From: an uncultured Glaciecola sp.
GTDB taxonomy: Bacteria > Pseudomonadota > Gammaproteobacteria > Enterobacterales > Alteromonadaceae
NCBI GenBank assembly: GCA_947496235.1
Contig: CANMCE010000002.1
Location: 124,001 to 188,000 of the forward strand
Reading direction: 5' to 3'
Length of the DNA: 64,000 nt
Part shown: piece after piece, positions 32,971 through 48,641 of the stretch
Position numbering within the stretch: the stretch's first letter is position 1
Layout of the letters: each line of letters begins with the position of its first letter
The notes under the pieces: generated by a model
Database searches by the model: none
What the model saw: only the letters and a program-made list of their open reading frames with translations
Told to the model about the DNA's origin: nothing
Position numbers and translations under genes: made by a program

Positions 32971-33012
32971 CGACGTGTTTTGTTTTCGTGTAGCTGAAGT
33001 AATCAAGGAATT

Positions 33013-33125
33013 ATCGTTATTGAGTTAGCTACGAAGAATCGTTATTGAGTTAGCTACGAAGAATCGTCATTGAGTTAGCTACAAAGAATCGTCATCGTGG
33101 CGCAGGCCACGACCTCCTTGGAACA
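33013..33125 (+). repeat. Solitary hairpin repeat with three 25-bp tandem head units
   Basis: Three 25-bp units (ATCGTTATTGAGTTAGCTAC plus GAAGA) at 33013-33037, 33038-33062 and 33063-33087 are followed by one full hairpin arm (to 33125) with a perfect 7-bp stem TCGTGGC/GCCACGA. From 33072 the sequence is nearly identical to the inverted-repeat arms of the GIY-YIG element at 47516-48013, differing by about three bases. No nuclease gene is present here. The remaining bases up to 33314 show nothing recognisable. Confidence 0.85.
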
Positions 33126-46200: not shown

Positions 46201-47391
46201 ATGTCTTTGATAACCGATTATGATGTAGTTGTGTTAGGCGCGGGTGCGGCAGGACTTTTTTGCGCCATTGAAGCCGGAAAGCGCGGTCGAAAAGTGGTAG
46301 TGATTGACCATGCGAAGCGCCTTGGCGGTAAAATTTTAATGTCAGGAGGTGGTCGCTGTAATTTTACCAACATGTACACCAGCCCTGAAAATTACATTTC
46401 TGAAAACCCACACTTTTGTAAGTCCGCACTAAGTCGTTATACCCAGTGGGATTTTATTGATTTGGTTTGCCAGTATAAAATTCCTTACCATGAAAAGACC
46501 CTCGGCCAATTATTTTGCGATGATACTGCAAAATATATAGTGGACATGCTATTAGCCGAATGTAAGAAAGCCGGCGTTATTATCTTAAACCGGTGTGACT
46601 TTAACGCTGTTGTTAAGCTTGGTTCGGGGTATCAGGTGGATACTGCTAAAGGTCAATTCTTAGCGCAAAGTTTTGTTGTTGCAACCGGTGGATTGAGTAT
46701 GCCAAAGCTAGGGGCAACGCCCGTTGGTTATAAGATTGCAGAACAATTTGGTATGCAAATAGTGCCTACCAGAGCAGGGCTGGTTCCTTTTACTCTGCAC
46801 GAGCAAGATAAAGAAGTGTTATCCACCTTGAGTGGGGTTTCTGTTGATGCCAGCGCCGAGTGCAATAACACCCATTTCAATGAAAATATTCTATTCACAC
46901 ACCGTGGTTTAAGCGGCCCAGCGGTGCTGCAAATATCATCCTATTGGCTGCCCGGCCAAGAAGTAGAATTCAATTTATCACCGCAGGTGGATTTAGCTGA
47001 TTATCTAAGCCAATCTCAACAAAAAACGCCAGACGCATTGGTGTCTACAGCATTGTCGAATCATTACCCAAAACGAATGGTGCAAGCACTGCTACCTTAT
47101 TTTGGTATTAGCAATAAACCGCTTAAACAGTTCAATCTAAGAGAGTTACAACAGGTAATTGATGCCTTTACGCAATGGCGTATAAAACCCAATGGCACCG
47201 AAGGATACAGAACCGCAGAGGTCACCTTGGGTGGCGTTGATACCAAGTACTTATCCTCTAAAACCATGGAATCCACCCAACATAAAGGCTTGTACTTTAT
47301 TGGTGAAGTCATAGATGTCACTGGCTGGCTAGGAGGCTACAATTTCCAATGGGCTTGGTCCAGTGGCTGGGTAGCAGGGCAGGTGGTTTGA
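46201..47391 (+). CDS. NAD(P)/FAD-dependent oxidoreductase, HI0933/YhiN family
   Basis: The 396-residue flavoprotein has the Rossmann motif VLGAGAAGLFCAIEAGKRG, the family signature GGKILMSGGGRCNFTN and a closing GEVIDVTGWLGGYNFQWAWSSG that completes the FAD site. The family is conserved in bacteria but its substrate is unknown. The complete length and both signatures suggest a working enzyme. Confidence 0.93.
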   Translation: MSLITDYDVVVLGAGAAGLFCAIEAGKRGRKVVVIDHAKRLGGKILMSGGGRCNFTNMYTSPENYISENPHFCKSALSRYTQWDFIDLVCQYKIPYHEKTLGQLFCDDTAKYIVDMLLAECKKAGVIILNRCDFNAVVKLGSGYQVDTAKGQFLAQSFVVATGGLSMPKLGATPVGYKIAEQFGMQIVPTRAGLVPFTLHEQDKEVLSTLSGVSVDASAECNNTHFNENILFTHRGLSGPAVLQISSYWLPGQEVEFNLSPQVDLADYLSQSQQKTPDALVSTALSNHYPKRMVQALLPYFGISNKPLKQFNLRELQQVIDAFTQWRIKPNGTEGYRTAEVTLGGVDTKYLSSKTMESTQHKGLYFIGEVIDVTGWLGGYNFQWAWSSGWVAGQVV

Positions 47392-47515
47392 ATTTGTGTA
47401 TTTACAATTTAGTTTGCACGCTTCCCTTAAAGTTTGCACATAAATTTTGTTAAACAAAAAACTATCATACTGAACGGCGCAAATGTACGTTAAGCGGAAG
47501 TAAGCAACACAGAGC

Positions 47516-47563
47516 TAACTACGAAGAATCGTCATCGTGGCGCAGGCCACGACCTCCTTGGAA
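47516..47563 (+). repeat. Left inverted-repeat arm with hairpin
   Basis: Perfect inverse of 47966-48013. The internal stem-loop TCGTGGC-GCAG-GCCACGA is self-complementary within the arm, as in REP sequences. Similarity to the solitary copy extends a few bases outward (GAG before the arm). Confidence 0.92.
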
Positions 47564-47657
47564 CATAGTAAATTTAATTAAAACCGATACAAAGAACAGT
47601 CTAAATAAAATGAAAATTCGCTAAGCTTGCTTTATTTGATTACAGGGCATTCCAGTA

Positions 47658-47951
47658 GTGAAGCAACCTTGTGTTTACATTATTACCAATACGCACAATA
47701 CAACACTATATATCGGCGTAACGATTAATCTAATTCAACGTATTCATCAACACAAAAACAAGCAAGTAGATGGCTTTAGCAAAAAGTACAACTTGCAAAA
47801 GCTGGTGTACTTTGAACAGTTTGTCCTTATGGAGGATGCAATATTAAGAGAAAAGCGCTTAAAAAACTGGCATAGAGAATGGAAAGATAAATTGATCAAT
47901 ACAGAGAATCCGGATTGGGACGATTTGTATGAAGCTTTACTTGTGAATTAA
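47658..47951 (+). CDS. GIY-YIG family endonuclease, small standalone type
   Basis: The 97-residue protein starts at GTG with weak SD. It consists only of the GIY-YIG domain: CVYIIT (Tyr7), TTLYIGVT (Tyr18, Gly20), LIQRIHQHK (Arg28) and a Glu in LREKRLKNW (about 65), then KDKLINTENPDWDDLYE. This COG2827-type nuclease nicks DNA; its cellular role is unknown. Lying alone between inverted hairpin repeats it is the best candidate for moving them, as RAYT transposases do for REP sequences. Confidence 0.88.
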   Translation: MKQPCVYIITNTHNTTLYIGVTINLIQRIHQHKNKQVDGFSKKYNLQKLVYFEQFVLMEDAILREKRLKNWHREWKDKLINTENPDWDDLYEALLVN

Positions 47952-47965
47952 CCAACTGCATTAAT

Positions 47966-48013
47966 TTCCAAGGAGGTCGTGGCCTGCGCCACGATGACGA
48001 TTCTTCGTAGTTA
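47966..48013 (-). repeat. Right inverted-repeat arm with hairpin
   Basis: Exact reverse complement of the left arm over 48 bases, starting 14 bases after the nuclease stop codon. The hairpin could also act as a transcription stop for the nuclease gene. Confidence 0.92.
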
Positions 48014-48152
48014 ACTTTTAGGCCGCAATTTGTCTCAAGATGCCCATGGCACATTGGGGGTTCAAATGTATGTAAAACTGACGCAGTGAGATTTTCTGAA
48101 TAATTTCATTCCCCCTGAACATTACTACTGAAGATGGTAAAAATTAGCGTGT

Positions 48153-48641
48153 CTAGCTATTTAATTTCGGTTCCATAGACACTGATAACGGATGAGAAAG
48201 CAGTTTAGTTAACACATTGTTCCAGAAGCCTAAAGTCACCTGCATTACATCGAGCAAACTTGTGTAATCCAAAGGTTTTGACAAGTATGCGCTGCATCCA
48301 AGTTGATAACAATCCTGGATGTCTTTGTCAGCATCAGACGTAGAAAAAATGATCACAGGAATATGACGAAAGGTATCGCTTTTCTTTAAGGTTGCTAGTA
48401 CTTCTTTGCCGTCCATTTTGGGCATATTCAAGTCTAATAATATAAATCTGGGCAAGGTATTGTTTTGTTGTAATTTTTCGATTAAATCAAAACCATTGGC
48501 AGCGAGCTGAATCTGATCTTTGTTCAACTTATTTTCCATTAAGGCATCAGAAATTAATTCGCGATCGTCAATGTCATCGTCAACAACGAAAATATACCCC
48601 TTGTGTAGAGATAATTTCTGAAGAGATTCGGTTGTTGTCAT
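48153..48641 (-). CDS. Single-domain response regulator (CheY-like)
   Basis: The 162-residue protein is a lone receiver domain: FVVDDDIDDRELI acidic pocket, phospho-acceptor Asp in FILLDLNMPKMDG, Thr/Ser in IIFSTSD and Lys in YLSKPLD. The arrangement IxxDLNMPxMDGxE with FSTSD is typical of receivers that pair with hybrid or phytochrome-like histidine kinases. The ATG has GAGGA 7 bases upstream. No kinase is adjacent. Two palindromes lie upstream (48697-48728). Confidence 0.92.
   Translation of the reverse strand: MTTTESLQKLSLHKGYIFVVDDDIDDRELISDALMENKLNKDQIQLAANGFDLIEKLQQNNTLPRFILLDLNMPKMDGKEVLATLKKSDTFRHIPVIIFSTSDADKDIQDCYQLGCSAYLSKPLDYTSLLDVMQVTLGFWNNVLTKLLSHPLSVSMEPKLNS

Follow-up and report, generated by a model that had tools for sequence, protein, structure and literature searches.

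The CGTC REPs are a superfamily of repeats described in five phyla by Di Nocera, De Gregorio, and Rocco in 2013, and are defined, in that survey, by an unpaired CGTC (or TGTC, CCTC) tag at one end, a stem of 8-9 bp with a complementary A-T pair first, a loop of 4-5 nt, and a short unpaired tail that is mostly CCA (PMC3733652). According to the same survey, dRS3 of Neisseria is CGTC-1, many REPs are proposed to act as RNA elements, the tyrosine transposase genes of CGTC-bearing species are not flanked by CGTC REPs, and the authors, having found no dedicated transposase, left open how the repeats spread (PMC3733652). No word beginning with GIY was found in the main text of the survey, and our literature search retrieved no paper tying GIY-YIG proteins to REPs, which is no proof that none exists in print.

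Two groups of GIY-YIG enzymes are also relevant. Homing endonucleases such as I-TevI are copied into the site that they cut when the break is repaired. Ssn proteins are reportedly GIY-YIG nucleases specific for single-stranded DNA that have a Neisseria repeat as target, work that is attributed to Chenal and colleagues in Nat Commun in 2025; the Ssn of Neisseria meningitidis is reported to act on repeated sites and to modulate natural transformation.

We analyzed a stretch of 64,000 nucleotides from the genome of an uncultured Glaciecola sp., referred to here as the window, in which a GIY-YIG gene lies between two inverted repeats (Table 1). The first-pass annotation had described perfect 48-bp inverted arms, a 7-bp hairpin in each of them (TCGTGGC-GCAG-GCCACGA), and a 97-residue GIY-YIG nuclease as the only gene in between, and all of these features are confirmed in the sequence. 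The limit of 48 bp holds for exact complementarity, but similar tails continue beyond it at some other copies, and a repeat search reports a single inverted pair around the unit, of 69 nt at 87% identity. The left tail (GGAAGTAAGCAAC) is alike at the arms at the end of contig C5, on C10 and C19, and at two arms on C18, and the arm-end comparison did not find it at the left end of the C8 copy described below. The right tail (AGACAAATTGC) is present at five ends, namely that of the window and four others (the C8 right end, with one change, the start of C5, the end of C7, and the start of C8).

Table 1. Features of the nuclease unit and of a solitary arm, numbered from the first base of the window
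Feature	Position	Strand	Basis or remark
Outer left tail (GTACG...GGAAGTAAGCAAC)	47485..47515	+	Similar at several other arms; limits read by eye
Left 48-bp arm, CGTC-tagged REP-like repeat	47516..47563	+	Exact reverse complement of 47966-48013
CGTC tag preceding left main hairpin	47530..47533	+	Tag as defined in PMC3733652
Left-arm main hairpin, 7-bp stem, GCAG loop	47535..47552	+	Sequence, folding
GIY-YIG nuclease gene, 97 aa, GTG start	47658..47951	+	ORF, Pfam, alignment
Right 48-bp arm, inverted	47966..48013	-	Sequence comparison
Right-arm main hairpin	47977..47994	-	Sequence, folding
Right-arm CGTC tag	47996..47999	-	Sequence
Outer right tail (AGACAAATTGC... on minus strand)	48014..48036	-	Limits read by eye
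Solitary arm (core 33086-33112) and preceding 25-bp units	33011..33122	+	Sequence search

When folded as single-stranded DNA, the two arms give energies of -11.4 and -10.6 kcal/mol (z -3.3 and -3.6), with a small outer hairpin of 4 bp in addition to the main hairpin, which follows the CGTC tag in each arm. When 47513-48016 is folded as a single strand, pairing of the arms with one another brings the energy to -95.6 kcal/mol, compared with a mean of -46.0 kcal/mol for 100 shuffles. Moreover, the 27-bp arm core is matched exactly at three places in the window, where chance predicts 0.00 matches, and the third place is the solitary arm. This arm is preceded by two full and one partial head-to-tail units of 25 bp that correspond to the outer half of the arm, and contigs C10 and C19 of the genome terminate in arrays of a similar kind.

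As judged from the definition in the 2013 survey, the arms resemble CGTC REPs in having a CGTC tag before a short palindrome, in opposite orientations, and a 4-nt loop as in family 1, and they are repeated in the genome (10 arms at ≤3 mismatches; control 0). They differ in that their number is low relative to the usual high copy numbers of REPs, the first A of the stem is unpaired, and their tail is CCTCC rather than CCA, although the word "most" in the survey implies that CCA is not strictly required. A CCA tail is frequent, if not universal, in the arms of relatives. The stem of the window arms has 7 bp and a loop of 4, and the left arm of the C8 copy is able to form an 8-bp stem with A-T. 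A further difference is the GIY-YIG gene between the repeats, the authors having reported no dedicated transposase. The hairpins fit the CGTC REP superfamily, and the earlier proposal that the element is undescribed does not hold in full.

The 97-residue protein matches the Pfam GIY-YIG family at E 2.4e-15. An alignment of 25 proteins, consisting of the window protein and 24 relatives, has Tyr7, Tyr18, Arg28, His32, Glu65, and Asn84 among its invariant residues, all six of which we take to be GIY-YIG catalytic positions. Among solved structures, a profile search places UPF0213 proteins highest, at E 3.9e-6 and 8.4e-4, followed by UvrC (E 0.0036). In addition, there is a weak PADLOC match covering 36 residues, and a search of a phage collection gave no match at E 1e-8. 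The window protein is most likely of Ssn type, being, like Ssn, a small GIY-YIG protein near repeated hairpins, and this resemblance further reduces the novelty claimed at first. A gonococcal homologue, which we assume to be Ssn itself, is 49% identical over 86 aa and is located in a 1.66-kb stretch with ten tagged hairpins. The role reported for Ssn, however, is in transformation, whereas mobility of the unit is argued here. The protein also shares its fold with the homing endonucleases (1mk0, E 0.033), and copying into a cut site is a possible further likeness; unlike the I-TevI type, the unit has no intron and possesses hairpin arms, and 97 residues leave no room for a separate DNA-binding domain. 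A nuclease gene between inverted hairpin repeats, with solitary and paired repeats elsewhere, is likewise seen in RAYT/REPIN systems (REPtrons) as described in PMC3733652, but the enzyme of the window is GIY-YIG rather than a Y1 HUH transposase and the tag is CGTC rather than GTAG. As a result of this difference in the defining enzyme, the unit is not placed in the RAYT/REPIN family.

Four protein matches are present in the Glaciecola genome itself, namely the window copy, an intact copy on C8 that is 91% identical to the window protein, a copy on C5 with an internal deletion, and a remnant on C2. The count of elements and arms suggested by the first-pass annotation therefore yields a second intact copy, a deleted copy, and a remnant, together with lone arms elsewhere in the genome, where the outer half of the arm has 22 matches at ≤2 mismatches (control 2). 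Between the window (C2) and C8 units the identity is 92.4% over 528 nt, and inspection shows that their neighboring genes are unrelated. The perfect identity of the arms, which had been stressed earlier, is a property of the window copy and is not general, since the two arms of the C8 copy differ from each other. Three arms, at the end of C5 and the starts of C8 and C18, are all broken at the same base by TATATGGACTCCC..., which a genome search finds only at those three contig ends; such a pattern would be as expected of an insertion sequence targeting these hairpins. One Y1 transposase gene was found in the genome (G000:C4:247526-247858). It is flanked by an inverted repeat of its own (GGAGCCGTAGTTCATTTT) that is unrelated to the arms, and no arm lies within 1.5 kb on either side of it; action of a RAYT in trans on the arms is not supported.

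The association between nuclease and hairpins extends well beyond this genome. From a scan of genome contigs of many phyla we used the best 80 of 216 confirmed loci, a sample that leans to close relatives as a consequence of this choice, and added the two intact Glaciecola copies and four congeners to give 86 loci with different gene sequences, of which two with short flanks were dropped. Inverted arms scoring at least 16 flank 58 of the remaining 84 genes but none of the 135 control positions taken from these loci (p 6e-33), in agreement with the earlier view that nuclease and hairpins belong together, although 26 of the 84 genes have no strong arms, which counts against the reading that we favor below. 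Among arms with a hairpin of at least 6 bp, in whose detection the tag was not used, GTCA is present in 49 of 53, of which 35 have it on the outer side and 14 on the inner. When the tag is required, a hairpin is found within 450 bp of 73 of the 84 genes versus 25 of the 135 controls, and on both sides of 50 genes versus none of the controls. Where neighboring tagged hairpins are ≤80 bp apart, they mostly face opposite ways (inward in 61 cases and outward in 39, compared with 24 in the same direction). Going by record titles, the loci with tagged hairpins on both sides belong to Proteobacteria, Chloroflexi, Nitrospinota, Cyanobacteria (Leptolyngbya, Gastranaerophilales), Treponema, and, as one example of the candidate phyla, Portnoybacteria. 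Such flanking is absent from more distant GIY-YIG genes: in 25 loci from a profile search, a tagged hairpin lies within 450 bp in 3, each one-sided, and on both sides in none.

Hairpin class also clusters on the nuclease tree, where it changes 15 times as opposed to 35.3 times with shuffled labels, a value as low being reached in 0 of 200 shuffles. The tree contains 80 of 95 loci, the 15 that lack a tagged hairpin within 250 bp being omitted, and the loop classes were assigned to the nearest tagged hairpin within that distance by ad hoc rules that leave 9 rows as "other". With 8 of 75 inner branches starred, the branches are weakly supported, and the class of hairpin perhaps tracks phylum as well, so that common descent alone could explain part of the clustering; the pattern may reflect shared descent.

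Co-occurrence was assessed in 229 genomes of the class, that of the window included, at a gene cut-off of E≤1e-10. The gene is present in 53 of them and the hairpin pattern GTCATNNNNGCGNANGCNNNNATCC in 77, compared with one match in total for a control pattern. The pattern is present in 36 of the 53 gene-bearing and 41 of the 176 other genomes (Fisher p 4.6e-9). Arms in genomes devoid of the gene had been named at the outset as evidence against the link, and this is partly what is seen: 22 of the 41 gene-less genomes with the pattern have at least five copies, a count for which a generic hairpin pattern was used in place of the window's own arm. The 17 gene-bearing genomes in which the pattern is missing count against the link as well. 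GIY-YIG profile matches occur in 13 of the 22 hairpin-rich gene-less genomes and, at about the same frequency, in 9 of 22 genomes with neither. Hairpins can evidently persist, or be kept, without a detectable gene of this kind, which makes it less convincing that they depend on the nuclease.

Evidence for movement was sought in eight genomes with at least two copies, that of the window included, and unit-sized close copies were found in three, namely the Glaciecola genome and two others (G107 and G229). Three unit pairs in G107 are 95.6% identical over 406 nt, 96.1% over 356 nt, and 94.4% over 359 nt, with homology that stops at or inside the hairpins, and a pair in G229 is 91.8% identical over 392 nt; for these pairs no flank ORF beyond 700 nt matches the other flank. 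Nevertheless, the flanks in G107 and G229 have additional short repeat blocks in common, a further G107 pair (93.5% over 821 nt) exceeds the unit, and no unit-sized close pair exists in the other five of the eight genomes, all of which counts against mobility. Occupied and unoccupied versions of one site could be compared in Sphingobium plasmids, where the position between fnrL and a response regulator gene is occupied in 7 of the 11 records covering at least 75% of the query (sequences were read for 8 of the 11). Two of the four unoccupied sites have a single palindrome, perfect in one and imperfect in the other, and two have none. The palindrome consists of the outer half of the left arm fused to the outer half of the right arm. 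Similarly, the gltA-lpxB site of Sinorhizobium CP090106 has one unit and a partial copy, and a relative with 96% identical flanks has there a single palindrome joined in the same way. Since both arms share a half-stem in the same direction, deletion between the half-stems yields a single palindrome; homing into a palindrome is the reverse of this deletion, so that the single-palindrome sites fit both and the palindrome could be ancestor or remnant of the unit. The Shinella sites gave no clean junction, no empty site was evident among the matches listed for a Rhizobium query, and a search for target duplications, which was not systematic, found none. The copies in unrelated contexts, together with the palindrome sites, support movement as a unit, in line with the mobility claimed by the first-pass annotation, in which the nuclease would act without a transposase.

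It had also been suggested that a nuclease found at a fixed locus in all relatives without the repeats would speak against a mobile element. The gene is present in 6 of 12 congeners (E≤1e-10), and in none of the 12 is it at the site of either Glaciecola copy. For the window copy, the 1.5 kb downstream of the flavoprotein gene was covered (one locus being shorter); this gene is present in all 12 congeners but the gene downstream of it varies, and for this reason there is no clean empty-site junction. For the C8 copy, the search extended 1.5 kb around a conserved CNNM-type gene, next to which the following gene or intergenic region varies among congeners. Downstream of the CNNM-type gene, one congener (G008) has an inverted pair of hairpins with related tags that encloses no gene, and its genome has no nuclease match at E≤1e-10, making this a gene-less hairpin pair. 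In two congeners the inverted arms next to the nuclease gene are expanded into arrays, which are built of ~20-bp units or of complete hairpins.

This nuclease unit is real and recurrent and is linked to CGTC-type hairpins, with the same arrangement recurring across phyla, hairpin classes that cluster by nuclease lineage, and copies of the unit in unrelated contexts. We consider it moderately probable that the window contains a small REPtron-like unit in which a GIY-YIG nuclease, likely of Ssn type, and its cognate CGTC hairpins spread in a homing-like manner. By analogy with Ssn, the nuclease would most likely recognize and nick the CGTC hairpin as single-stranded DNA, perhaps on the lagging strand or in transforming or repaired DNA. 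The break might then be repaired on the template of another copy, short homology being provided by the half-stems, and arms or the entire arm-gene-arm unit could in this way be inserted at further hairpin sites, much as happens with a homing endonuclease. The gene could be lost, and one palindrome left behind, by slippage or annealing between the half-stems, which are equal in the two arms, and further products might be the internally deleted copies and solitary arms that are seen. Action of the nuclease on CGTC-type hairpins is likely, and it is plausible that it drives the spread of the hairpins and the unit.

An alternative is that the nuclease is a resident protein that modulates DNA uptake or recombination, with the hairpins as its sites, ordinary recombination as the means of spread, and a gene that is not selfish. 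The activity reported for meningococcal Ssn on repeated sites and the ten tagged hairpins around the gonococcal homologue are in accord with such a host function, which we nonetheless regard as unlikely given the patchy presence of the gene (6 of 12 congeners, 53 of 229 class genomes), its absence from both checked sites in the congeners, and the existence of decayed copies and of unit copies in unrelated contexts. We regard it as less likely still that the gene is a passenger captured between two arms moved by another transposase, either a Y1 RAYT or an insertion sequence. The arms do resemble REPIN ends, a Y1 gene exists in the genome, and hairpins are found in many genomes lacking the nuclease gene; against this, the repeats of the Y1 gene are unrelated and no arm lies within 1.5 kb of it, a single nuclease subfamily is found between arms in different phyla, and, in the 2013 survey, tyrosine transposase genes of CGTC-bearing species are not CGTC REP-flanked (PMC3733652).

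That the arms serve as bidirectional terminators or mRNA-stabilizing hairpins of a small gene, their two-sidedness being incidental, seems highly improbable. Inverted hairpins on both sides of the gene and the role as RNA elements proposed for many REPs in the survey (PMC3733652) would be compatible with this regulatory function, but no terminator-like site was found at 47390-48160, solitary arms exist elsewhere in the genome, and the control positions have no such flanking. Chance or an assembly artefact can practically be dismissed: several further arms do lie at contig ends, yet no match to the arm core is expected by chance and the same design recurs in 58 of 84 loci, which already refutes this idea.

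The fact that related genes of very different bacteria often lie between related hairpins makes the enzyme a good candidate for the missing partner of these widespread REPs. The wider proposal, that this GIY-YIG nuclease is the missing dedicated enzyme of the CGTC REPs and spreads both the hairpins and its own gene across phyla by single-strand cutting and repair copying, is in our opinion possible but somewhat doubtful. If true, it would represent movement of DNA without a transposase or a site-specific recombinase, and would connect the maintenance of a widespread bacterial repeat with a single-strand nuclease that is reported to affect natural transformation. The spread of CGTC REPs, left open in 2013, can also be tested directly, using a protein of 97 residues and an oligonucleotide of 48 nt.

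Two plasmid-borne relatives have features of their own. The nuclease gene at the occupied site in Sphingobium sp. TomTYG73 seems to be frameshifted and is unannotated, and that of a Planktothrix agardhii plasmid has a gene annotated as an MmeI-type restriction enzyme on one side and one annotated as DISARM drmA on the other.
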